DNA from: an uncultured Oscillospiraceae bacterium
Lineage (GTDB): Bacteria > Bacillota > Clostridia > Oscillospirales > Oscillospiraceae
Assembly: GCA_944385435.1 (NCBI GenBank)
Contig: CALWXG010000017.1
Span: 1 to 42,502, forward strand
Direction of reading: 5' to 3'
Length of the DNA stretch: 42,502 nucleotides
The notes below the pieces were generated by a model. It made no database searches, was not told the DNA's origin, and saw only the letters and a list, made by a program, of their open reading frames with translations. The translations under genes and the position numbers were made by a program. Shown one piece after another: positions 5,274-42,435 of this stretch (the first letter of the stretch is position 1; every line of letters starts with the position of its first letter).

Positions 5274-5498
5274 TTGACTCCGAATCAGCTGAATGCATTG
5301 GATCAAGTTTTTCAAGGCGAGCCAAAGTGTCATGGCTTCAAGGCCTGGGATGGTCCGTTGCTTTCCGCTTATATCAAATCAGAATACAGCATCGATCTGG
5401 GGGTGCGTCAGTGGCAGAGGATGTTTTGTAACCCTGGGTATTCGCGCATCCGCCCTCAGTCATATCCAGACATGGGATATGGGGATGCGGAGAATTGA
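5274..5498 (+). pseudogene. IS630-like transposase N-terminal fragment
   Basis: A 74-codon open frame whose sequence GFKAWDGPLLSAYIKSEYSI followed by LGVRQWQRMF and NPGYSRIRPQ fits the winged helix-turn-helix N-terminal domain of IS630-type transposases (pattern W-x4-L-x2-I-x3-[FY]-x8-R-x2-[LM] then GYS-x3-P). The DDE catalytic domain is missing. No clear start or ribosome-binding site is present. It is read as a decayed remnant. The stretch 5049-5273 upstream holds no gene I can name; one open segment there ends KTVSRHWG at about 5171. Confidence 0.5.
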
Positions 5499-7111: not shown

Positions 7112-7999
7112 TTACAATTCCTCTTCTGTGACGCACTGGCGCTTAAGGGTGCCCACCAGGGACTCCAGAGCGGCGATGACATGGGGACGGATGTCGCCGC
7201 CCACCAGCACCCGCATGAGATCGTCCCCCACCTTCAGCTCCCCCCGGTTCAGCCACACTCGAACATGATAGATTCCCGGCAGGCGGCGGGTCTCCTCCAC
7301 GGCGGTGGCCACCCGCTCCGGGTCATAGGAGAAGCGCATGCCGGACACCGGCTTGGCCTGGGCATCCCCCTCCCGGACCCGGGCCCGGGCTGTCTGGCGC
7401 ACCACGCCGTTGTGGAACAGGTACATGCCGATTTCCCCGGCTGCCTCCAGGGCCTTCGCCTCCCGGAGCCAGGCGTCCACGGAGGGAGGCGTCTCCCCGG
7501 AAGCCGGCGCGGCACAGTCCGCGGAGCCCTGGGAGCAGAGCATATCCAGGCCGTGGCCGATGGCTCCCAGCACGGCGTTCAGGTTCTCCCGGGACGCCTT
7601 CTCGCTGCCGGGAAGATTTATGATCAGAGTGCGGCCCCGGATTCCCGCAGCCTCCCGGGAGAGGCAGCCCCGGGGAGTGATGCGCAGGCTCTCTGCCCGC
7701 ATGGCCTCCGGAATGCCCGGCGTGGCCCGCTGGATCACCGCCAGGGTGGCCTCCGGCGTCACGTCCCGGGGAGAGAAGCCGGTCCCGCCGGTGGTCAGCA
7801 CCAGGGAGAGCTCCAGCTCGTCGGCGCAGCGGATCAGTTCCCGCTGGATCAGAATCTGTTCGTCGGGGAGAATGGCGGTGTGGGTTACGCGGTATCCCGC
7901 CTCCTCCAGGATGCGCACCAGGGATGGGCCGCTGGTATCCACCCGTTCGCCCCGGGCGCCCTTGTCACTGATGGTGATAACTGCCGCTGTATACTGCAT
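7112..7999 (-). CDS. MogA-MoaE fusion, molybdopterin/tungstopterin biosynthesis
   Basis: A 295-residue protein. Residues 1-160 are a MogA/MoaB domain (molybdopterin adenylyltransferase) with AAVITISDKGARGERVDTSG, TTGGTGFSPRDVTPEAT and IINLPGSEKA. Residues about 180-295 belong to a divergent MoaE family known from clostridia (MYLFHNGVVRQTARARVR, MRFSYD, GIYHVRVWLNRGELKVGDD). MoaE is the catalytic subunit of molybdopterin synthase. Here the usual C-terminal P-x-WK-K-E is replaced by VTEEEL, so the second catalytic lysine appears absent, while an LKR lysine remains. ATG at 7997-7999 has AGGAGG 7 nt upstream. It is the last gene of the leftward tungsten cluster, 103 nt after tupC, and is followed by the terminator at 7008-7051. 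Confidence 0.88.
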   Translation of the reverse strand: MQYTAAVITISDKGARGERVDTSGPSLVRILEEAGYRVTHTAILPDEQILIQRELIRCADELELSLVLTTGGTGFSPRDVTPEATLAVIQRATPGIPEAMRAESLRITPRGCLSREAAGIRGRTLIINLPGSEKASRENLNAVLGAIGHGLDMLCSQGSADCAAPASGETPPSVDAWLREAKALEAAGEIGMYLFHNGVVRQTARARVREGDAQAKPVSGMRFSYDPERVATAVEETRRLPGIYHVRVWLNRGELKVGDDLMRVLVGGDIRPHVIAALESLVGTLKRQCVTEEEL

Positions 8000-8102: not shown

Positions 8103-8753
8103 TCAGAGGGCGTAAAAATCCAGAAAGGCCCGGGTTTCCGCCCGGCGGGGGTGAAAGAGCACCTGCCCGGCCTCCCCCTGTTCCACCAGGCGTCCCTCCC
8201 GGAGAAAGAGCACCTGTCCTGCCAGCCGCCGGGCCTGGGTCAGGGAATGGGTGACTAGGAGCACGGTACAGCCCGTCCTGGCCTGGTATTGCAGCAGAAG
8301 CTCCTCTGCCAGAAGGGTGGCGGCCACGTCCATGGCCGCAGTGGGCTCGTCCAGAATGAGAAAGGGATAGTCCTTCAGCAGAAGCCGGGCCAGGGCCAGC
8401 CGGGCGGTCTCCCCGCCGGAGAGACCCTTGGCGCTCTGCCGGGCCAGCCCATCCAGCCCGAAGGCCTTCAGCTGCCCCATGGCCTGCTCCCGCCCCGCCC
8501 CGGTGAGCTGCAGGTTGTGCAGCACGCTCATCCGGAAGGGATAGGACCGCTGGGGCATATACCCGGACGGCCCCACCCGGGGAAGGGCGCCGCCGTCCGG
8601 CTCCAGCACTCCCGCCAGGATCCGGGCCAGGGTGGACTTGCCGCTGCCGTTGGCGCCGATGACAGCGTGGATGACGCCGTCTTTCAGTTCCAGGCCGGGC
8701 AGATCCAGTACCTTGCGGCCGGCATAAGTTTTACAGATGGGAGGCAGTTTCAT
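8103..8753 (-). CDS. tupC: Tungstate ABC transporter ATP-binding protein TupC-like
   Basis: A 216-residue ABC ATPase with Walker A GANGSGKST, signature LSGGETARLALAR, Walker B FLILDEPTAAMD and the switch histidine in LLVTHS. It powers import of tungstate (or molybdate) through the membrane permease. Its ATG overlaps the permease stop codon (ATGA at 8750-8753), so the two are translationally coupled. It has no C-terminal TOBE domain, as expected for TupC rather than ModC. Assignment to tungstate comes from the TTTS motif of the binding protein and the neighbouring aldehyde oxidoreductase. Confidence 0.88.
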   Translation of the reverse strand: MKLPPICKTYAGRKVLDLPGLELKDGVIHAVIGANGSGKSTLARILAGVLEPDGGALPRVGPSGYMPQRSYPFRMSVLHNLQLTGAGREQAMGQLKAFGLDGLARQSAKGLSGGETARLALARLLLKDYPFLILDEPTAAMDVAATLLAEELLLQYQARTGCTVLLVTHSLTQARRLAGQVLFLREGRLVEQGEAGQVLFHPRRAETRAFLDFYAL

Positions 8754-9624: not shown

Positions 9625-10671
9625 TTATTCCATCACGCCGTTGTTGGCCTGGAAGGTGAGGAAGGTGGCCTTGTCCGAGAGGATATAGGCGCCCATCTCC
9701 TCCGCCATGGTCAGGCACACACCCATGCCTGCGTTGGAGTAGGTGTACCAGTCGGTGTAGCCCTCCACAGAGGCGGCGTCCACGGTGATGCCCAGCTCCT
9801 CAGGCCACAGGGAGATCTCCTTGGTGTGGGTGCCGGACTGGTCGCCCCGGGAGACAAAGGGGTACTTGCCCTCGGCGATGGCGGCGAAGGCGTCCTTGAC
9901 GGTGGCGGCGTCCTTCACCCCGGCGGGGTCGGCGGAGGGGCCGCACAGGACAAAGTAGTTGTACATAAAGGTCAGCCGCTCACTGTCAAAACCGGGCAGC
10001 ACATAGGAGTAGCCGCCGGCCACGAACTCCTCCTCCTGGCTCTTGGAGTGAACCAGAAGCAGGTCGGCGTTGCCGCTCTCCGCGTTGGCGATGGCCTTGC
10101 CGGTGCCGGCGGAGGTGACCTCCACCGTGTAGCCGTAGGCGTCCTCAAACAGGGGCAGCAGATAGCCCAGCAGGCCGGAGTCATTCACGGAGGTGGTGGT
10201 GGACATGCGGATGGTCTTGGTCTCTTCAGTGGCCTGGGGGATCTCGGCAGTGGACACCGGGCCGTCTTCGGTGAGGTAGAAGAGGTACTCGCCGTAGTCG
10301 GCGTAGCCGTACTCAGCGGCGGCGGTCTTGCCCTCCTCGGAGAGCATCCAGTTGATCAGGGCGGAGGCGCCCTCGGTGTTGATGTACACGTCGGACACCG
10401 GGTTGCCGTCCGCGTCCACAAAGGGGGCGTCGGGGTTGACGGCCAGCAGGGAGTAGTTGTTGATCATGTCGTCGTCGGCCTCAAACAGGATGGTCAGATC
10501 CACCCCTTCCGCCGCGGGCTCCTCACTCTCAGGGGCCTGGCTCTCCGGAGCGGCACTCTCGGAGTTGGCGGGGGCAGGGGCCTGGCTTTCCGTGGACTGC
10601 GGCTGCGCGCATGCGGTGAGCAGCGCCGCAAGCAGGGACAGGGACAGCAGGATTGCTGCAATCTTTTTCAT
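9625..10671 (-). CDS. tupA: Tungstate-binding lipoprotein TupA-like, circularly permuted
   Basis: A 348-residue lipoprotein. Signal peptide MKKIAAILLSLSLLAALLTAC ends at a lipobox cysteine (LLTAC) and is followed by a Ser/Pro/Glu-rich linker. The anion-binding TTTSVNDSGLLGYLLPLFED motif, normally at the mature N-terminus of TupA, is here near residue 160. The segment normally found at the C-terminus (ILFEADDDMINNYSLLAVNP, then a helix ending INWMLSEEG and GEYLFYL) is instead at residues 58-135. The protein ends just after the position where that segment should begin (ATFLTFQANNGVME). This looks like a true circular permutation of one binding protein and not a fragment, since both pieces together make a whole fold. 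ATG at 10669-10671 has GGAG at about -14. It is the first gene of tupABC. Confidence 0.9.
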   Translation of the reverse strand: MKKIAAILLSLSLLAALLTACAQPQSTESQAPAPANSESAAPESQAPESEEPAAEGVDLTILFEADDDMINNYSLLAVNPDAPFVDADGNPVSDVYINTEGASALINWMLSEEGKTAAAEYGYADYGEYLFYLTEDGPVSTAEIPQATEETKTIRMSTTTSVNDSGLLGYLLPLFEDAYGYTVEVTSAGTGKAIANAESGNADLLLVHSKSQEEEFVAGGYSYVLPGFDSERLTFMYNYFVLCGPSADPAGVKDAATVKDAFAAIAEGKYPFVSRGDQSGTHTKEISLWPEELGITVDAASVEGYTDWYTYSNAGMGVCLTMAEEMGAYILSDKATFLTFQANNGVME

Positions 10672-10791: not shown

Positions 10792-10874
10792 GGCGGCTCC
10801 ATCCATGACATGCTCCGAGCGTCCACTGCCAAAGGGCTCGTCCACCATTTGGAAGGATACACGCGTGCGCCGCC
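10792..10874 (-). ncRNA. Structured leader of tupA, possible Moco/Tuco riboswitch
   Basis: In the roughly 235-nt untranslated leader of tupA, GGCGGC (10869-10874) pairs with GCCGCC (10792-10797). Inside, CGAGC pairs with GCTCG around the loop CCTTTGGCAGTGGAC. Just upstream is a CCTCT/AGAGG hairpin. The 3' side of the outer stem is followed by GGGTTTTT, terminator-like. Location before a tungstate transporter and the CUUUGGC-x-GUG loop suggest a molybdenum/tungsten cofactor-sensing RNA. I could not verify a match to a known covariance model. Confidence 0.35.
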
Positions 10875-13025: not shown

Positions 13026-13277
13026 TCAACCGCCGCTGGCCGGGGTCAGCAGCACCACCGCGTCCCCGTCCGACAGGGCGTGGCGGGGCCTGCACTGTTT
13101 GCCGTTGATCATGACGATGCAGGCGCGCAGGTCTTTCACGGTGACAGGCTCCAGACCGGTGCCGGCGGAGATTTCCGCCAGCCGGGCGTAGAGCTCATCC
13201 AGGTTTTTGGCCTCCAGCTGATATTCCTTCAGCCCGGAGCGCAGGCGCAGGGCGCCGAACAGCTTGACGCTCACCAT
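13026..13277 (-). CDS. MoaD/ThiS-family sulfur carrier protein
   Basis: An 83-residue ubiquitin-fold protein. It starts MVSVKLFGALRLRSG and ends PASGG, with the C-terminal Gly-Gly needed for thiocarboxylation. In the cofactor pathway it would donate sulfur to the pterin. Close linkage with aldehyde oxidoreductase genes is common, and such MoaD proteins are thought to serve tungstopterin. Its ATG is one nucleotide from the stop of the aldehyde oxidoreductase gene (TGACATG), so the two are coupled. The divergent ThiF/MoeB-like protein at 21067 is the likely activating enzyme. Confidence 0.93.
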   Translation of the reverse strand: MVSVKLFGALRLRSGLKEYQLEAKNLDELYARLAEISAGTGLEPVTVKDLRACIVMINGKQCRPRHALSDGDAVVLLTPASGG

Positions 13278-13278
13278 G

Positions 13279-15210
13279 TCAGCCGCCCCCTTTCAGCTTC
13301 AGCCGGCGCAGGGTGCTCCGGGTGGGGATGCCGTTGGAGTCCCAGCCCCGGGCGGCGTAATAGACGGGCTTCATCTTGTCCAGGGGGACGCGGCTTCTGG
13401 GCTCGTCCGGGCGCTCCAGCTCGTCGGTGAGCCGTTTGGGCAGGGTGTCGTCCTTTGCGGACACGCCGAAGCGGCAGTTGACGCTGCGCTCCAGGGTATA
13501 GCCCCGGTTGCCGATGCTCATGTATTTGCCGAAGGTCATGGGCATCCCGGTGGCGTACTGAAAGCCCCTGGTGTGGTGAAACACCGGAGAGAGATGCATG
13601 TGGACCAGCTGGGGGAAGCGGTTGAGCAGCCGCACCGCCGCACCCGCGTGGGGGAGTACCTTGTTCACCGCCTGGGTATACCAGGCGTTGGGTCGGGACA
13701 TGAGGAAGCCGGGGAAGAAGGCGTAGGAGGTGAACAGGCACTGGCCCGAGGCGGAGATCATCTCCATCAGGTTCTGGAACATGACGGTGAGATCCGCCTT
13801 GGCCTTGGGGGTCTGGCTGTCGATGTTCAGTCCCAGGCCCTCCAGGATGACCAGGTAGCCGCCGTTCAGGTGGCAGCCGCCCCGGTTGGACACGGCGTAG
13901 CCCAGGCCCATGCCCACGGCGTGGCGGGGCTCGTAGGCGGACAGTTCCAGCCCCTTGGACTGGATGGCAAACTCCTTCCCGCCGTACTTCTCCGACAGCC
14001 GTTTGGAGCCGTTGGCCAGCTCGTCGCCGATGCCCCGGCGGTGGGCGATGTCCTCCCACAGCCGGGAGATGCCGCCCACGTCGCCGAAGTTCAGGCCGCA
14101 GTTCCAGACGCCCTTTTCGTTGGCCTCCATGGCCCAGGCCAGGGTGCCGGCGGCGGAGATGGAGTCCATGCCCAGCTCGTCCAGCTCATAGTTCCAGCGC
14201 AGCAGCAGCTCCATGTTGTCGTTGCGGATGCCGCCGCCCAGCAGGCCCAGGGTCTCCAGCTCGGGGCCCTTCACCTCCTGCCCGTCCAAAGCCACCGTGC
14301 GGGCGCACCGGATGGGACAGGTGAGACAGCCCTTGTTCACCACGTTGAACTCCTCCGCCAGCCGCTCGCCGTTGACCTTTTCAAAGCTCTCGTTCTGGCC
14401 GTGCTTGAAGTTCTCTGTGGCCAGGATCTTGCGCATCTGCATCTGGCTCACCAGCCCGGCGGTGCCGATGCGGGGCAGCTGTTCCCCGGTGAGAGGGTGG
14501 GTGCGGAGATAGTGAAACCACTTCCGGTTCCACTTCAGCATTCCCTCCGGATCATAGGGACGCACCACATGGTTGCCGGTGACGGTGACGGCCTTCAGAT
14601 TCATCCAGCCCATGATGGCCCCCATGCCGGTGCGGCCGGAGATTCGCTCGTTGCTGATGATGGAGGCGTAGAGCACCCGATTCTCCCCCGCCGGGCCGAT
14701 GCACAGCTTGCCGCTCTTGTCCGGGGCGCCGTCCTGGGTCAGCAGCTGGGAGAGGGCGGCCTGGGTCTCGGAGGCCTTCTTGCCCCACAGCCCATCGGCG
14801 TTGTGGAAGATGAATTTGTCGTTGCGGATCTCCAGCCAGGTGTGCTCCCTGGCCTGCCCCCGGAGGATCAGCGCGTCGTAGCCCGCCTTCTTCAGGTAGT
14901 AGCCGAAATTGCCCCCACAGTTGGAGGAGGCCAGCAGGCCGGTCTGGGGGGACAGGGTGGAGATGTTGAAGCGGCTGGAACTGGGCGCCCCCGTCCCGGT
15001 GAGGGGCCCGGTGGCGATGACCAGCAGGTTCTGGTCGGAGAAGGGCTTTTCCTTTCCGGTGAGGTGGTCGCTGAGGATCTTGGCCGCCATGATCTTGCCG
15101 CCGATGTACAGCTCCCGCTCCCGGTCGGACCAGGGATAGGGGGAGACCTCCCCGGTGGCCAGGTCCACCTGGACGACCTTTCCCATATATCCGCCATATT
15201 TTGAAGACAT
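13279..15210 (-). CDS. aor: Aldehyde:ferredoxin oxidoreductase, tungsten enzyme
   Basis: A 643-residue AOR-family protein, slightly longer than the archaeal type of about 605. The N-terminal domain MSSKYGGYMGKVVQVDLATG and GKIMAAKILSDHL fits the tungstopterin-binding fold. Cluster ligands are CLTCPIRC (CxxCxxxC) and a later Cys in SASGQCLF, the expected fourth ligand. It oxidises aldehydes to acids, reducing ferredoxin, or runs in reverse. ATG at 15208-15210 has GGGAGG 7 nt upstream; a GTG five codons earlier overlaps that site. It is the first gene of the aor-moaD-ferredoxin-adh operon. The -10 element at 15258-15263 lies about 48 nt upstream of the start. Confidence 0.94.
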   Translation of the reverse strand: MSSKYGGYMGKVVQVDLATGEVSPYPWSDRERELYIGGKIMAAKILSDHLTGKEKPFSDQNLLVIATGPLTGTGAPSSSRFNISTLSPQTGLLASSNCGGNFGYYLKKAGYDALILRGQAREHTWLEIRNDKFIFHNADGLWGKKASETQAALSQLLTQDGAPDKSGKLCIGPAGENRVLYASIISNERISGRTGMGAIMGWMNLKAVTVTGNHVVRPYDPEGMLKWNRKWFHYLRTHPLTGEQLPRIGTAGLVSQMQMRKILATENFKHGQNESFEKVNGERLAEEFNVVNKGCLTCPIRCARTVALDGQEVKGPELETLGLLGGGIRNDNMELLLRWNYELDELGMDSISAAGTLAWAMEANEKGVWNCGLNFGDVGGISRLWEDIAHRRGIGDELANGSKRLSEKYGGKEFAIQSKGLELSAYEPRHAVGMGLGYAVSNRGGCHLNGGYLVILEGLGLNIDSQTPKAKADLTVMFQNLMEMISASGQCLFTSYAFFPGFLMSRPNAWYTQAVNKVLPHAGAAVRLLNRFPQLVHMHLSPVFHHTRGFQYATGMPMTFGKYMSIGNRGYTLERSVNCRFGVSAKDDTLPKRLTDELERPDEPRSRVPLDKMKPVYYAARGWDSNGIPTRSTLRRLKLKGGG

Positions 15211-15257
15211 CGTATCGCCTCCCACAGGATAACTCCTGCAATGGATTTTTCACCTTT

Positions 15258-16319: not shown

Positions 16320-17793
16320 GGCGCTCACCTCCCAGCAGCGGGCTGCCCGGCCCGTCCTGGGTCACCTCCCAGGGGGAGAGGCCCAGCTCCCGGGAGAGCA
16401 GCTCCAGCACCCGGTCCGCACACCAGCTGCCCTGGCACCGGCCCAGGCCCGTGCCCACCCGGCGCTTCACCCCGTCCAGAGTCACCGCCCCCCGGCGGAT
16501 GGCCTCTAAAATCTCCCCCTCGGTGACGTCCTCGCACCGGCAGACCACCCTTCCATAGGCGGGGTTGGCCTGTACCAGCGCCCGGCGCGCCGGAAGATCC
16601 AGGTCCCGGGGCCTGGGCGGCGGGGTGCGGCAGGGGTCAAACTCCGGATTGGGGGCGTCCTTGCCCAGATAGGCCGCAGCTTCCCCGGCCAGCATGGCCC
16701 CCAGGGCGTCGGCGCAGGTGAGCCCCGGGGTCTTGATTCCGATGAGGGACCAGAGCCCCGGGTGGGGGTGCTCGATGGCAAAGCTGTGGATGCCCCGCTC
16801 TTCCGGCACCCAGCCCTCCCCCTCCCTGCGGACATGGAAGGGATTGGGCCGCACCGCCCCGAAGGCCCGGATCACCTGGCTCAGGTCCAGGCCTGGGACC
16901 ACCCGGGCTGCCCTGCTGCGGAGAAAGTCCAGCCCCTGCGCCGTCACGGCCCGGTCAGACGCCTCCCCGCCGGGCTGCTCCGAGGGGCCCAGGAGCAGCT
17001 TGCCGTCGGTGGTGGGCACCAGGGTGAGGCCCTTGCCCTTCTGCTCCGGCTCCTGAAAAATCACATGGCGGACGAAGGGCCCCGCCGGCTGATCCAGCAC
17101 CAGATAGTCCGCCCGGTCGGGGATGACCCGCACGGCGGGGGACGTACACAGCTCCTGGACCCGGTGGGCGTTCAGCCCGCAGCAGTTGAGCACCGCCCCT
17201 GCCCGGAGGGTGTGGGGACCGGCGGTGACGATCCAGTTCGCCCCCTCCCGGGCCAGGGCGGTCACCGGGGCGTTGCGCCAGACCCGGCAGCCGTTGGCCT
17301 GCGCGTTCTCACAGGCGGCGAAACACAGCGCCCAGGGGTCGGTCACCCCGGTGCCGGGGGCCAGCAGGGCGCAGGAGATCCCCGGGGCCAGCCCGGGCTC
17401 CATCGCTTCGGCCTGGGCCCCGGTGAGGATCTCCAGATTTTCCACCCCATTGTCCCGCCCCTGCCGGTATTTGCGCCGGACCACCTGGTCCCCCCGGGGA
17501 CCATAGCTCACCAGCAGGGAGCCCCGGCGGACAAAGGGGACGCCCAGCTGAGCGCACAGAGCTTCAAAGGTCCGGTTGGCCTGTACGCACAGCCGGGCCT
17601 TCAAAGTGCCGGATTTGTTGTCGCAGCCGGTGTAGACAATGGCGCTGTTGCCCCGGGAGATGCCGGTGCACACGTCCTCCCGGGCCTCCACCAGGGCGCA
17701 GCGCAGCTTGTAAGACGTGAGATGCCGGGCGGCAAAGCAGCCCAGCAGCCCGCCGCCCAGCACCACCGCGTCGAAACGCTCCTCAGAAGACAT
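16309..17793 (-). CDS. GlpA-like FAD oxidoreductase with BFD-type [2Fe-2S] domain
   Basis: A 494-residue protein. Residues 1-370 form a DAO/GlpA-type flavoprotein (FDAVVLGGGLLGCFAARHL; ISRGNSAIVYTG). Residues about 415-480 are a bacterioferritin-associated-ferredoxin-like domain with CRCEDVTEGEI and GRCQGSWC, the four cysteines of a [2Fe-2S] site. Family members oxidise glycerol-3-phosphate or amino-group substrates. The start is ATG at 17791-17793, 11 bp inside the end of the MoeA fusion gene; only a weak ribosome-binding site is visible, consistent with coupling. With the next gene it forms a two-subunit dehydrogenase-like unit. Confidence 0.88.
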   Translation of the reverse strand: MSSEERFDAVVLGGGLLGCFAARHLTSYKLRCALVEAREDVCTGISRGNSAIVYTGCDNKSGTLKARLCVQANRTFEALCAQLGVPFVRRGSLLVSYGPRGDQVVRRKYRQGRDNGVENLEILTGAQAEAMEPGLAPGISCALLAPGTGVTDPWALCFAACENAQANGCRVWRNAPVTALAREGANWIVTAGPHTLRAGAVLNCCGLNAHRVQELCTSPAVRVIPDRADYLVLDQPAGPFVRHVIFQEPEQKGKGLTLVPTTDGKLLLGPSEQPGGEASDRAVTAQGLDFLRSRAARVVPGLDLSQVIRAFGAVRPNPFHVRREGEGWVPEERGIHSFAIEHPHPGLWSLIGIKTPGLTCADALGAMLAGEAAAYLGKDAPNPEFDPCRTPPPRPRDLDLPARRALVQANPAYGRVVCRCEDVTEGEILEAIRRGAVTLDGVKRRVGTGLGRCQGSWCADRVLELLSRELGLSPWEVTQDGPGSPLLGGERRDL

Positions 17794-19690
17794 GGCGCAC
17801 CCGGCCCGGCTGATCCAGGGTGTAGCCGCCCAGCTGTTCCAGCCGGGCCCGGAATTCCGGTCCGGCCAGGATGTCCAGCACCCGGCGGATCATGGGGGTG
17901 TCCCAGGCGTAGTCGGGGATGATCAGGTCATACTGCTCCACGCACACCGGCAGGAAGTCCAGACCGTAGATCTGCGCTGCAGAGTAGATCCCCATGCCCG
18001 CGTCGGCGGTGCCGCCGGCGATCTGGGCGGCCACGGCGGTGTGGGTGAACTCCTCCCGGTCATAGCCGTAGACCTGGGCGGGATCCACCCCCTCCTTCCG
18101 GCACAGGTAGTCGGCCAGGATGCGGGTGCCGGAGCCCTTCTGGCGGTTGACGTAACGCAGCCCGGGCCGGGCGATGTCCCCGAAGCCGGACAGGTGCAGG
18201 GGATTGCCGGGGGCCACCATCAGGCCCTGGGTCCGGCCCACGCACTCCACCTGGTACACGCCCCCCTGGGGGAACTGCTTTTCCAGGAAGGCGGTATTGT
18301 AGGTGCCGTCGGCCTCGTTGAGCAGGTGGCAGCCGGCCATGTGGGTCTCCCGCCGGCGGATGGCCATGAGGCCCCCCATGGAGCCCACGTGGGAGGAGCT
18401 CATACAGGCGCTGGGGTCCGCCAGATGGAGCAGGTCGGCCAGCTCGTCCAGCAGGGGGTCGTGGCTGCCGATGGCCACCAGGGTGTGCTCCAGATCCCGG
18501 GCGGGGCGCAGCAGACGGACGCGGACGGAAGTCCCCGCCTCCAGCCCCTCGCTGCCCTGGGGGATCTCCAGAATGCCGTCGGCCTTCAGGAAGGAGGACA
18601 CCACCCCGCTGCCCCGGGCCAGGGGGGCGGCCACCAGCCTCCCGTCTACCTGGCCCAGGCGCACCCGGACGAACTCCCGGTACTTCAGGCTGGACACCAC
18701 CCGGCGGCTGAGCACCGCCTGGGCGGTCTCGGCGGGCTGGGGCGCCCGGCACAGCCACAGATCCACCAGGGGCCGCAGCAGCTGTTCGATGACGATGATG
18801 CCGGACACCGGGTAGCCGGGCACGCCCAGGATGGGCTTGGCCCTCAGATGGCCCAGGATGGCGGGCTTGCCCGGCTGGATGGCCAGGCCGTGGCAGAAGA
18901 CCTCCCCCACCTGGCCGATGACGGCGGCGGCGTAGTCCTCCCGCCCGGCGGAGGAGCCGGCGTTGAGCAGCACCATGTCGCACTCCTTCAGGGCGCCCGA
19001 CAGGGCGTCGCGCAGTGCCTCCTCCCGGTCCGGGACGATGGGATAGGTCCTGGGCTGCGCCCCCCACTGCTCCACCATGGCGGAGAAGATGGAGGAGTTG
19101 AACTCCATCACATCCCCCGGCTTCGGGTCGGCGGAGGGGGGCACCACCTCGTCCCCGGTGGGGATGATGCCGATGACCGGCCGGGCCAACACCTCCGCCT
19201 CCAGCACGCCGGCGGCCAGCATGGCCCCGATGGCGGCGGGGGAGATGGCCGTGTGGCCGGGCAGGAGCATCTCCCCGGCGCAGATATCCTCTCCGATCTG
19301 ACGCACGTGCTGCCAGGGGGCGGCGGCCTGGCGGATCACCGCCTGCCCTTCGGTGAAGACCACCTCCTCCACCATGATCACCGCGTCCCGCCCGTCGGGC
19401 AGGGGGTCGCCGGTGTCCACCACGGTGTACTGTTCCGGGGTCAGGGAGACGGGGGTGGTGTCGCTGGCGCCGAAGGTGTCCCCGGCGGAGACGGCGATGC
19501 CGTCCATGGCGCAGGCGGGGTAGTGGGGCGTGCAGATGCGGGCGTACACCGCCCGGGCGGTGATCCGGCCCGCGGCGGCCTGGACCGGGATGGTCTCCGT
19601 CCGGGGGGTGAAGCCCTGCTCTTGGAGCAGGGCCAGATACTGGCTTCTGGCCTCGTCCAGAGGCCGGTTGTTGAGATATTGAAATGCCAT
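17783..19690 (-). CDS. MoeA fused to periplasmic-binding-like domain
   Basis: A 635-residue fusion. Residues 1-400 are MoeA (molybdopterin molybdotransferase): CAMDGIAVSAGDTF, PTGDEVVPP, GSSAGREDY and GVPGYPVSG. Residues about 410-635 are a type II periplasmic-binding-like (PBP_like, PF12727-type) domain without signal peptide, containing SHDPLLDELADLL, SSHVGSMGGLMAIRRRE and GSGTRILAD. MoeA inserts the metal into adenylated pterin, and the extra domain may bind the oxyanion or a regulator. The fusion is known in archaea and clostridia. ATG at 19688-19690 has GGAGG 8 nt upstream. It lies 28 nt after the second moeA, in the same transcript. Confidence 0.9.
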   Translation of the reverse strand: MAFQYLNNRPLDEARSQYLALLQEQGFTPRTETIPVQAAAGRITARAVYARICTPHYPACAMDGIAVSAGDTFGASDTTPVSLTPEQYTVVDTGDPLPDGRDAVIMVEEVVFTEGQAVIRQAAAPWQHVRQIGEDICAGEMLLPGHTAISPAAIGAMLAAGVLEAEVLARPVIGIIPTGDEVVPPSADPKPGDVMEFNSSIFSAMVEQWGAQPRTYPIVPDREEALRDALSGALKECDMVLLNAGSSAGREDYAAAVIGQVGEVFCHGLAIQPGKPAILGHLRAKPILGVPGYPVSGIIVIEQLLRPLVDLWLCRAPQPAETAQAVLSRRVVSSLKYREFVRVRLGQVDGRLVAAPLARGSGVVSSFLKADGILEIPQGSEGLEAGTSVRVRLLRPARDLEHTLVAIGSHDPLLDELADLLHLADPSACMSSSHVGSMGGLMAIRRRETHMAGCHLLNEADGTYNTAFLEKQFPQGGVYQVECVGRTQGLMVAPGNPLHLSGFGDIARPGLRYVNRQKGSGTRILADYLCRKEGVDPAQVYGYDREEFTHTAVAAQIAGGTADAGMGIYSAAQIYGLDFLPVCVEQYDLIIPDYAWDTPMIRRVLDILAGPEFRARLEQLGGYTLDQPGRVRHVF

Positions 19691-19718
19691 ACAGGATCCC
19701 TCCAAGCCCTCGCGGCGG

Positions 19719-20945
19719 TCAGTCCGCGAGGAAGATATGGACCAGGACCTGGGCTCCGGCGGGGAAGCCCTCACAGTCCCGGGGAATGCAGAAGTAGCCG
19801 TCCGCCCCGGCCAGGGCGGTGATGAGCCCGGACTTGCCCCGGATGGGCAGGGCCTCCAGCCCCTGGGGCCCCTCCCGGAGGAGGGCGCCGTTGTACTGGG
19901 CCCGGCCGTGGTTGGCGGACACCCCCTCGGTGAGCCGGGCGGTCACCTGCCGCCGGCGCAGTTCCCGGCCCTCCAGCCGGGCCAGAAGGGCCCGGACAAA
20001 GAGGTGGGTGACGAACAGGGCGGCCACCGGATGCCCCGGCAGGCCCACCATGGCCTTGCCCGCCGGTGTCCGGCCCAGCAGGGTGGGCTTGCCCGGCTTC
20101 ATGGCGATGCCGTGGAAGAGAACTTCCCCCAGGGCGGACATCACCCGGTAGGCCGCGTCCTTCTCCCCCACCGAGCTGCCTCCGGACAGGATCACGGCGT
20201 CCTGCTCTGCCAGGGCCTGTTCCACCGTCTGCCGCAGCCGCGCCTCCCGGTCCGGGACAATGCCGTAAAATTGGGGCAGGGCCCCCGCCTGCTCCAGCAG
20301 GGCGCACACCAGCGGCCCGTTCACGTCCCGGACCTGGCCGGCGGCGGGGGGATGGTCCGGCGCCACCAGCTCGTCCCCGGTGGACAGCACCCCCACCCGG
20401 AGCCGGGGCAGCACCGGCACATCCGTCACCCCCAGGGCGGCCAGGGCGCCGATGTCCTGGGGCTCCAGCCGGCGGCCGGCGGGGAGCACCCGGTCCCCGG
20501 GCTTGACATCGTCCCCCCGGAAAATCATGTTGTGGCCCGGGGCCACGCTTTTCAGGACGCCGATGGTGCCGTCGCCGTAGTCCTCACACAGCTCCAGCAT
20601 CTGCACCGCGTCCGCGCCGGCGGGCACCTCCCCGCCTGTGGGGACGGCGGCGCACTGGCCCGGGGCCAGGGTCAGCCCCGCCCCCTCCCCCATCCGGACC
20701 TCGCCGGCCAGGATGAGCTGGGCGGGCAGGGCGTCGGAGCAGCCGAAGGTGTCCGCGGCCCGGACGGCGTAGCCGTCCACCGCGGAGCGGTGAAAGTCCG
20801 GGACCCAGGCGTCCGCAGTTACGTCCCGGGCCAGCACCCGGCCCAGGGCGGCGCTGAGGGGAACGGCCTGCGGGGGCCGGTTCAGAGGGACGAAGGCGGA
20901 ATGGATGATCTCCAGGGCCTCGTCCGGGGTTTTGACTGTGAGCAT
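19719..20945 (-). CDS. moeA: MoeA, molybdopterin molybdotransferase
   Basis: A 408-residue standalone MoeA. Motifs are RSAVDGYAVRAADTFG, PTGGEVPAGADAV, STGDELV, SGGSSVGEKD and GLPGHPVAALF, with the C-terminal domain IV complete. It catalyses metal insertion into adenylated molybdopterin, the product of the MogA domain. ATG at 20943-20945 has AGGAGGG 7 nt upstream. Having two MoeA proteins next to each other suggests one for tungsten and one for molybdenum, as proposed for other organisms with paired MoeA; which is which cannot be read from the sequence. Confidence 0.93.
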   Translation of the reverse strand: MLTVKTPDEALEIIHSAFVPLNRPPQAVPLSAALGRVLARDVTADAWVPDFHRSAVDGYAVRAADTFGCSDALPAQLILAGEVRMGEGAGLTLAPGQCAAVPTGGEVPAGADAVQMLELCEDYGDGTIGVLKSVAPGHNMIFRGDDVKPGDRVLPAGRRLEPQDIGALAALGVTDVPVLPRLRVGVLSTGDELVAPDHPPAAGQVRDVNGPLVCALLEQAGALPQFYGIVPDREARLRQTVEQALAEQDAVILSGGSSVGEKDAAYRVMSALGEVLFHGIAMKPGKPTLLGRTPAGKAMVGLPGHPVAALFVTHLFVRALLARLEGRELRRRQVTARLTEGVSANHGRAQYNGALLREGPQGLEALPIRGKSGLITALAGADGYFCIPRDCEGFPAGAQVLVHIFLAD

Positions 20946-21004
20946 GAAATTTCCCTCCTGATACAGGACTGAGCATAGGGTGGGCCAAATCCCCCCCCCG
21001 GGGC

Positions 21005-21033
21005 TTGCCGCCCCCGGGGGAATCGGGTAAAAT
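21005..21033 (+). promoter_or_regulatory. Promoter of the ThiF/MoeB-like gene
   Basis: TTGCCG (21005-21010) and TAAAAT (21028-21033) are 17 nt apart. The spacer is a CCCCCGGGGG palindrome. A run of nine C at 20991-20999 lies just upstream, inside the short divergent region shared with moeA. Confidence 0.65.
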
Positions 21034-21066
21034 GAGAGCAAACCAAGCAAGAAAGGTGGAACTGCC

Positions 21067-21741
21067 ATGCAGGAGCGCTATATCCGCAATCTTGGCCCCC
21101 TCACCGAGGAGGAGTGCCTGCACCTGCGGGAGAGTCGAGTGTTTCTGGCCGGCTGCGGCGGGCTGGGGGGCTATCTCCTGGAGCACCTGCTCCGGGCGGG
21201 GGTGGGTGCGGTGACGGTGTGCGACGGGGATGTGTTTGCCCCCAGCAATCTGAACCGCCAGCTTCTGGCGGATGAGACCAGCCTGGGCCGGTCCAAGGCG
21301 GAGGCGGCCCGGGCCCGGGCCGCCCTGGTCAACCCGGAGGTCGCCGTGGAGGCCCTTCCCGTCTATCTCACCGAAGACAACGCCGGCCGGCTCATCGCCG
21401 GCCACCACCTGGTTCTGGACGCCCTGGACAGCCCGGCGGCCCGGCGCATCCTGGCCGGGGCCTGCCGTGAGGCGGGCATCCCCCTGGTCCACGGGGCCAT
21501 CCAGGGATGGTATGCCCAGGCGGCGGTGATGCTGCCGGACAGCGGCATGATGGAGCGGCTCTACCCGGCGGACACTCCGGGCCAGGCTGATCCGGGGAGC
21601 CTCTCCCCCACCGCCGGGCTGTGTGCAGCAGTCCAGGCGACGGAGGCCATCAAGCTGCTGTGCGGCCGGGCCAGTTCCCTGACCGGACAGCTGCTTTGGA
21701 TGGATCTGCTGGAACAGGAGTATCAGCTGCTCCCGTTCTGA
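21067..21741 (+). CDS. ThiF/MoeB/HesA-family adenylyltransferase
   Basis: A 224-residue E1-like enzyme. It has the nucleotide motif GCGGLGGYLLEHLLRAGVG, the DGDVFAPSNLNRQLL segment with catalytic Arg and Asn-Arg-Gln, and DALDSPAARR. It would adenylate the Gly-Gly tail of the MoaD-like protein at 13026. The ATG is at 21067 with AAGGTGG 8 nt upstream. The zinc-binding CxxC pairs of MoeB are absent, as in the shorter HesA-type proteins. It is transcribed divergently from moeA with 121 bp between the starts. Confidence 0.9.
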   Translation: MQERYIRNLGPLTEEECLHLRESRVFLAGCGGLGGYLLEHLLRAGVGAVTVCDGDVFAPSNLNRQLLADETSLGRSKAEAARARAALVNPEVAVEALPVYLTEDNAGRLIAGHHLVLDALDSPAARRILAGACREAGIPLVHGAIQGWYAQAAVMLPDSGMMERLYPADTPGQADPGSLSPTAGLCAAVQATEAIKLLCGRASSLTGQLLWMDLLEQEYQLLPF

Positions 21742-41600: not shown

Positions 41601-42435
41601 GTGCGCCCGGCATGGGCAATAACTAGGTGGTGAAAGTCCACTACAGACTTGGCAGTAGGAACTGTTAGCCGAAGGCAAGGGTGTCCATCGTGAGATGGAA
41701 TCTGAAGGAAGCCGGATGTGGAGGCTGCGAAGTGCCGAAACGGGCAAACTCCCGGTCCGACGAACAGAAATCGCATATGAGGCAATGCAAGGCGGACGAG
41801 TCTGCAATGCAAGACGAAGTCCAATACTGCCCGAACCTTGTATTGTAAATGAGGCGGATATATGGGAGGAAGGTTATTGCTCTTACCCGGGGAGGTCTTA
41901 CGGACGCAGAAGTCGGGGGAAATCCGAACCTGCGGAGTAAAGCTTGCCGTAAGAAGTCAGCAGAGGCCGTAGTACCGGGGAAAAAACCCGGGAAGGGCCG
42001 AACAATCGTAAGTCTTGAGTACAGACCGGAGGATCCCCGCAAGGGGGATTATGTGGAGCTCCGCATAAGGGGGACAGTTGTCTCCGCTCCTGGCGAACAT
42101 CTACCTGAACGAATTTGAGCAGGAAATGACCAAACGTGGCGTAAAAGTAGTTCGGTATGCGGACGACATAGTAGTGGTGACCAAAAGTAAGCGGGCGGCA
42201 GAGCATATGCTGGAATCCTGCCAGAAGTTTCTGGAAGGGAAATTGAAACTGACCATGAACCGACAAAAGAGCAAGGTGGTCAGCCTGTTCTCCAATCGAA
42301 ACTTCAAGTTTCTTGGGTGCTGCCTGGGGAAGAATGGACGAGGAGTATATATCCGAGTTCACAGGAAATCCCTACAGAAAGCAAAACAGAAACTACGGGA
42401 ACTAACCAGGAGAAGCCAGGGCAGAAACGTAAGCG
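41601..42435 (+). mobile_element. Group II intron, internally deleted
   Basis: It begins GTGCGCCCGGCATGGGCAAT, the GUGYG 5' end of group II introns, followed by conserved domain I pieces GGTGGTGAAAGTCCAC and GGCAAGGGTGTCCATCGTGAG. RNA domains run to about 42065. The sequence then jumps straight into the middle of the reverse transcriptase, so the RT N-terminal half is deleted. RT similarity ends near 42435; domains V and VI are not seen. The element probably cannot move by itself. Confidence 0.8.

Follow-up and report, generated by a model that had tools for sequence, protein, structure and literature searches.

Recent work on the use of tungsten by gut bacteria takes TupABC to be the tungstate importer (available text of PMC11980592 and PMC13328260), and the word ‘permut’ is absent from that text of PMC11980592. 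According to PMC13328260, genetic tools are established for Eubacterium limosum. Structures of the binding protein TupA include those from D. alaskensis (5my5) and G. sulfurreducens (3lr1), and 3muq and 3kn3 are assigned to TupA in the available part of PMC5517513. According to the same source, lobe A of the D. alaskensis protein is made up of two stretches, 2-76 and 201-251, lobe B spans residues 91-200, and a central strand lies at 77-89; the proposed anion-binding residues are T9-T11, S12, H59, R118, T124 and D170.

A natural circular permutation has been described for T. pallidum MglB-2 (Tp0684), a glucose-binding lipoprotein with relatives in gut Gram-positives, and tethering has been raised as a possible reason for it (PMC4990184, available text). 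MglB-2 is the one described natural precedent for a permuted transporter binding protein in the open-licence PMC literature, in which no report of a permuted TupA was found. In the available text of PMC3688454, ‘circular permutation’ concerns permease folds.

The gene described here lies in a window of 42,502 nt (the whole stretch of DNA that was analysed; coordinates are positions in it) and very probably encodes a natural circular permutant of TupA, which would serve a TupABC tungstate importer as its substrate-binding lipoprotein. It has in common with canonical TupA the homology of both pieces, the ligand residues and the tupABC operon. It differs in the swapped order of the pieces, in a connector of about 17 residues and in three small insertions, one of them a DADGN loop; furthermore, the chain ends, which lie on lobe A in canonical TupA, would lie on lobe B in the permuted protein. 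Like MglB-2, it is a natural permutation of the lipid-tethered binding protein of an ABC importer. From the available description, however, MglB-2 is a Type I (cluster B) sugar binder, whereas TupA is of another structural type; the permutation of MglB-2 adds a fourth hinge crossing, whereas the number of crossings in permuted TupA is probably unchanged; and the permuted portion of MglB-2 is 13% identical to its canonical counterpart, whereas the homology of permuted TupA is clear and its canonical sister group has been identified. The permuted halves of ribose-binding protein, reportedly laboratory constructs (PMC9815098), are likewise re-wired pieces of a binding protein, yet they represent no natural lineage.

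The locus and its predicted function

The features of the locus are collected in Table 1. In the ORF check the ATG of tupA reaches up to 10671 and the stop codon occupies 9625-9627. Family profile search gave the order tupA, tupB, tupC, with permease and ATPase genes adjoining tupA as in a TupABC importer. The tupB product matched NF038017 above its cut-off (E 2.6e-50) and the TupB model NF041773 below its cut-off (E 1.1e-36), while the start of tupC (ATG at 8751-8753) was read by eye, the family search having covered 8103-8750. A plasmid search returned 116 records that match in part, of which 0 reach 80% query coverage.

Table 1. Features of the permuted tupA locus, as positions in the window
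Feature	Position	Strand	Basis
MoCF_biosynth (MogA/MoaB-like) and MoaE-like domain protein, pterin cofactor	7112..7996	(-)	domain search
tupC, ABC ATPase	8103..8753	(-)	family search on 8103-8750
tupB, permease, 228 aa	8750..9436	(-)	family profile search
Permuted tupA, 348-aa lipoprotein	9625..10671	(-)	ORF reading, TupA homology, orthologous loci
TTTS-led piece, residues 152-342; homologue of 3muq chain 5-179	9646..10218	(-)	phmmer, profile
New connector between the former C and N ends, residues 135-151	10219..10269	(-)	conservation, model
Moved piece, homologue of the canonical TupA C-terminal piece, residues 57-134	10270..10503	(-)	phmmer, profile-profile
DADGN loop in the moved piece, residues 86-90	10402-10416		sequence comparison
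Linker rich in Ala/Ser/Pro/Glu, residues 22-56	10504..10608	(-)	sequence and AlphaFold2 model
Signal peptide and lipobox LTAC (Cys21), residues 1-21	10609..10671	(-)	by-eye sequence reading
Leader core GGTGGACGAGCC upstream of tupA	10835-10846	(-)	core match only
ThiS/MoaD-like small protein	13026..13277	(-)	domain search
Aldehyde:ferredoxin oxidoreductase, tungsten-type enzyme family	13279..15225	(-)	PF01314 E 1e-107, PF02730 E 1.8e-63
MoeA-like gene, second; C-terminal PBP_like domain fused	17783-19774	(-)	domain search
MoeA-like gene, first of two	19719-21068	(-)	domain search

The proposed ligand residues of the D. alaskensis protein map to T158-T160, S161, H208, R275, T281 and D333 of the window protein, all within the TTTS-led piece, and in 52 sequences they are invariant except for T160, which is conserved in at least 90%. 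Judged from its sequence, the window protein most likely functions as a lipoprotein that binds tungstate. Tungstate would be held between the lobes by the retained TTTS, His, Arg, Thr and Asp residues; TupA would then close and pass the anion to TupB, to supply the pterin cofactor of the aldehyde oxidoreductase encoded nearby. The oxidoreductase and the MoaD-, MogA/MoaB-MoaE- and MoeA-like neighbours form the setting expected of tungsten-pterin enzymes, and at least one relative of the oxidoreductase, MogA/MoaB-like or MoaD-like protein, some of them distant, occurs in 48 of the 80 loci examined (the best 80 of 120).

That the specificity of the transporter has moved to another oxyanion, such as molybdate, is a distinctly improbable reading; the permuted clade does carry insertions that canonical TupA lacks, but TTTS, H208, R275, T281 and D333 are retained and the neighbours are a tungsten aldehyde oxidoreductase and genes of the pterin pathway. 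Alternatively, the permuted protein could have lost its transporter role and act as a sensor, a chaperone or a storage protein, and the missing lipobox of some members, which is odd in a single-membrane cell, would fit with this. We regard it as highly improbable, more so than a change of oxyanion, given that tupB and tupC lie directly downstream in 73 of the 73 testable relatives (those with at least 700 nt downstream, among the best 80 of 120), that the ligand residues are kept, and that no second TupA was found in the window's own genome (94% complete).

Order of the pieces compared with canonical TupA

The sequence-only reading had suggested a circular permutation of TupA with one cut point, in the order lipobox, linker, C-terminal piece, TTTS-led piece and end. 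The sequence comparisons, profile matches, rotation scan and trees all agree with this suggestion, and the order matches the parts delimited in Table 1, the protein ending at residue 348 after the TTTS-led piece. The finding that would have overturned it, an unrelated N-terminal domain with a complete C-terminal lobe behind, is ruled out: the front piece itself corresponds by homology to the C-terminal piece of canonical TupA, and none of 146 TupA-like ORFs carries this piece again after the TTTS-led one.

In a phmmer search of PDB sequences the whole protein matched 3muq with an E-value of 1.4e-43, and 3muq, 3lr1, 5my5 and 3kn3 each aligned as two stretches in swapped order. With 3muq, residues 152-341 of the query correspond to chain 5-179 and residues 57-106 to chain 182-232. 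The front-piece stretch was weak in these single-sequence comparisons, with i-Evalues of 0.24 (3muq), 7 (3lr1), 260 (5my5) and 100 (3kn3). Matches of this stretch to PDB chains were also weak when a permuted-family profile was used (0.23 and 47 for the two chains shown). Because the single-sequence matches were weak, profile was compared with profile, using HMMs of the front and rear pieces built from 52 permuted proteins. The front piece then matched columns 178-243 of the 259 columns of the canonical TupA alignment with a probability of 99.4 and an E-value of 4.7e-22 (41% identity over 66 columns), and the rear piece (residues 152-342) matched columns 1-175 with an E-value of 8.7e-72 and 57% identity.

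The position of the cut was located by a rotation scan, in which all circular shifts of residues 57-348 were scored against a random sample of 25 out of 72 canonical TupAs. The best cut fell at residues 132-153 against 25 of the 25; the mean score was 441 for rotation at residue 152 and 285 for the unrotated protein, and the lowest of the scores printed, one for every tenth rotation, was about 108. The rotated protein is 53% identical to canonical TupA of locus L124 over 249 aligned positions, and 49% identical to that of L118 over 248. The swapped order, as read from sequence, thus rests on the profile-profile comparison, the rotation and the trees described below. Both the TTTS-led piece and the C-terminal piece belong to the TupA homology family, the latter at the N end, and the canonical chain order (TTTS-led, then C-terminal) is absent; a single cut, complete pieces and a common lineage of both, as in a circular permutant, were all found.

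Annotation is affected as well, as tools bound to sequence order detect only a partial TupA. Against the NCBIfam TupA equivalog NF041772 the protein scored 137 bits, the curated cut-off being 400, and this cut-off was reached in 0 of the 391 genomes sampled from the window's class, so that canonical clostridial TupA is missed along with the permuted form.

Spread and descent of the permuted form

Orthologues with the swapped order, which the sequence-only reading had proposed to look for, are numerous. When species genomes were scanned and the best 80 of 120 relatives examined, the order was intact in 79 of the 80 loci. In the remaining one, L055, the permuted tupA (L055:4821-5909) has its pieces in the same order, but positions 5352-5354 hold an in-frame stop codon; tupB and tupC are nevertheless present downstream. 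Among the 146 TupA-like ORFs, 85 have the swapped order, 54 the canonical order and 7 a single TTTS-led piece (one of these being the rear part of the L055 gene), and 0 are intermediate. The 85 swapped ORFs represent 82 distinct records, since L081 and L120 are the window gene and L119 and L122 are apparently the same as L002 and L024. An assembly artefact, in which a rearranged contig had joined pieces of two tupA genes, might be suspected where many of the records are metagenome assemblies; the same order in the 79 intact loci (of the best 80 of 120), including those of Flavonifractor sp. An92 and Slackia equolifaciens DSM 24851, refutes it, as these are independent records, and we give it a negligible chance.

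The permuted records come mainly from Oscillospiraceae, Ruminococcaceae, Lachnospiraceae and other Clostridia, many of them from gut or rumen, and two are from Slackia (Actinomycetota). A match to the TupA family was present in 47 of the 391 genomes sampled from the class; at least four of these 47 are permuted (G000, G041, G202 and G368), and those of G059, G123 and G338 are short. The permuted profile matched 187 of 398 genomes sampled from the phylum, with a match over the full permuted length at E 3.4e-186 in the window's own genome only and a next best E-value of 4.0e-68. Among 60 near relatives five have a permuted TupA, full-length in each. In the family of Slackia equolifaciens 22 of 138 genomes match, 4 with a permuted and 18 with a canonical protein; 16 of the latter were confirmed as ORFs, and in the remaining two the matches themselves lie in canonical order. 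A very divergent TupA-like gene of 271 aa, in which the family match ends early, is present at L166 (G003) and also in G123 and G338; that of L166 forms a long branch in the TupA tree.

For the TupA trees the permuted proteins were rotated into canonical order before alignment. In the more careful tree, from which near-copies and the rows L166, L175, L139, L174, L178, L142 and L151 had been removed, the permuted proteins (33 of 107 rows) form one clade inside canonical TupA (support 100/100; 200 of 200 bootstrap trees), and the stem of this clade measures 0.52 changes per site. A quick tree, with near-copies removed and long branches kept, also places its permuted proteins (48 of 120 rows) in one clade with a support of 99. 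Within the sampled tree, these alignments show the permutation to have arisen once. The sister group in the careful tree is the canonical TupA of the Slackia family together with that of family f129 (G730, G810), at 100/97.

When the two pieces were placed in separate trees (89 rows, 15 of them permuted and hand-picked from the 33), the same sister group was obtained with the TTTS-led piece (100/93, 178 columns) and with the front piece (98/91, 70 columns); both pieces therefore come from one TupA lineage, and the front piece is not from another protein family or from a distant TupA. This bears on a rival in which modules were fused, a foreign C-terminal fragment of a binding protein having been put before a truncated TupA in place of its tail. 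The connector and the DADGN loop are indeed new, and the front piece is less like canonical TupA (41%) than the rear piece is (57%), but alone it joins the canonical sister group of the rear piece, albeit in a tree of 70 columns only. We therefore consider such a fusion very improbable, and barely less so than the loss of the transporter role considered above. A circular permutation of one TupA remains the preferred reading.

The Slackia equolifaciens protein falls within the clostridial clade in the careful tree and basal to it in the quick tree. Since most of the matching genomes of the Slackia family carry canonical TupA, this placement is read as a transfer of the permuted tupA into Slackia; from sequence, a movement in either direction would be conceivable.

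No intermediates, such as a front piece at both ends or fused tandem copies, were found in the 146 ORFs, and in 17 re-searched genomes, several of them multi-copy, no full-length match of the permuted type was found beside a canonical one. Tandem canonical genes do occur: a sister-group genome has tupA-tupB-tupC-tupA (L188:5257-8650) and another has adjacent tupA-tupA (L195:5843-7883). Such separate tandem genes make a duplication route plausible, and no more. In the route that we infer, tupA would have been duplicated in tandem and the copies then fused, after which the TTTS-led part of the first copy and the tail of the second would have been lost.

Fold, tether, leader and permease

The AlphaFold2 model of the window protein has a mean pLDDT of 86.7 and a pTM of 0.76, with a disordered linker of mostly low confidence; for the protein of L034, which is nearly without a linker, these values are 91.4 and 0.81. 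In both models the ten-residue blocks of core and connector have pLDDT values of 80-99, and strands and helices lie at the places predicted from homology, with the elements of the C-terminal piece coming first, the connector next and the TTTS strand last. In the window model both blocks of the connector score highly (pLDDT 94 and 98). In 52 sequences A147 and T151 of the connector are invariant and I144, T148 and E150 are conserved in at least 90%; the new connection is a conserved segment that is modelled with confidence. In Foldseek searches TupA structures ranked first for both models, with 5my5 for the window protein (E 1.9e-12, 194 columns, target TM 0.62) and 3lr1 for L034 (E 4.1e-13, 192 columns, target TM 0.67). 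The fit to 3muq was poor with both models (target TM 0.38). Partial matches of this kind are expected of an aligner that follows sequence order.

By phmmer alignment and hand count, Y201 of the D. alaskensis protein corresponds to Y73 of the window protein, the rear piece ends at about residue 180 of the D. alaskensis chain and the front piece starts at about 187. We infer that the cut falls within lobe B, at D. alaskensis residues ~180-187, before the last stretch of that lobe; the lipid anchor and both termini would therefore shift from lobe A to lobe B. Relative to canonical TupA, the sequence shows the chain re-opened a little ahead of the last ~65 residues, with the old ends bridged by the connector of ~17 residues. 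Lobe A, which is split in canonical TupA, would become continuous (about residues 73-232), and lobe B would become the split lobe (about 59-72 and 247-348), carrying the C end as well as the lipid anchor. By homology with TupA of known structure, the fold would close in the usual way with its two hinge crossings unchanged. Since the permease is encoded by a single gene, TupB presumably forms a symmetric dimer, and on general grounds either lobe could then face either subunit, so that the move of the tether would be tolerable. The sequence-only reading had proposed that the moved tether point could alter opening or docking on TupB.

By script, 63 of 85 rows (the window, L001-L080, L119 and L121-L123, two of which are second copies) contain a lipobox, located 8-62 residues ahead of the first strand. 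The remaining 22, read by eye, comprise 16 signal peptides without a lipobox and 6 sequences that are cut, mis-started or missed by the pattern. The 16 without a lipobox have little linker and include L017, L026, L034, L044, L045 and L072 along with ten others; the tether account is thus not valid for all members. Rows with a DADGN-type loop, by a loose pattern, number 31 of 33 in the permuted clade and 3 of 74 among canonical proteins. We take this loop to resemble calcium-binding loops and possibly to bind calcium. The alignments also show two more small insertions in the rear piece of the permuted clade, which canonical TupA lacks.

The core GGTGGACGAGCC was found upstream of tupA in 58 of the 85 permuted rows, and in 3 of the 27 misses the upstream region is cut. 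Downstream of the core there is often a hairpin resembling a terminator, along with a T run; examples of this conserved leader are L021:2930-3035 and L062:4887-4992. Of 216 loci, 43 carry a single copy of the 17-mer GGTGGACGAGCCTCTTT, at the tupA leader, a count that is uninformative on the rest of the genomes since the loci had been fetched around tupA, and the bare 10-mer GTGGACGAGC is unenriched in the window's genome (22 sites, against 27 for the reversed control). The leaders of 33 rows were aligned. Covariation is thin, with 3 of 10 predicted pairs changing on both sides. A model of the leader matched 13 of 90 sources, that is 13 of the 34 with a permuted tupA and 0 of the 56 with a canonical one; 2 of the 13 belong to the building set, and many of the 34 had been picked for missing the core. 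In the window the full model gave no match at E<=1.

No gathering-level Rfam match to the leader was found in 14 loci, and no convincing weaker match in the window or L021. Moco/Tuco riboswitches have been described (PMC2408646, available text), and that Rfam family gave no match to the leader. The leader is possibly a new metal- or cofactor-sensing attenuator. At L010, where the leader core was not found, a Moco/Tuco riboswitch (RF01055, 49.7 bits) lies upstream of the permuted tupA at L010:4794-4914.

The TupB proteins of permuted systems likewise form one clade. In a first tree, with L166, L089 and L146 dropped as long branches, its support is 100/100 and its stem 1.1 changes per site, the TupB of G730 being nearest (97/96). 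An enlarged tree, to which 16 rows of canonical TupB from the Slackia family were added and in which L055 is counted as permuted, has 48 of 102 rows from permuted systems; these again group together as a single clade (100/100, found in 200 of 200 bootstrap trees) with a stem of 1.03; here the grouping of this clade with the TupB of the Slackia family and G730 is weak (85/62). A swap to a TupB partner from elsewhere was rejected in view of the one TupB clade, the apparent exception, L055, being a permuted gene with a stop.

The very long TupB stem (1.1; 1.03) and the undescribed terminator-like leader RNA at most permuted systems suggest a further reading, which we put forward as speculative and on the whole unlikely: the permutation would not have been neutral, the tether and ends on lobe B and the DADGN loop would have changed the seating of TupA on TupB, TupB would have been remodelled along with it, and the importer so re-engineered would have arisen once and spread within gut Clostridia and also into Slackia. 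The permuted TupA is a natural experiment on the tolerance of a binding protein for re-wiring, and it makes accessible the question of whether the lobe that bears the tether matters for closing, docking or release. As the sampling takes in the permuted proteins together with their canonical sister group and the permease that partners them, cause and effect of the re-wiring are testable in close relatives.

Away from the operon, pieces of group II introns (RF02001, RF01998) lie at the right end of the window, at 41684-41998.
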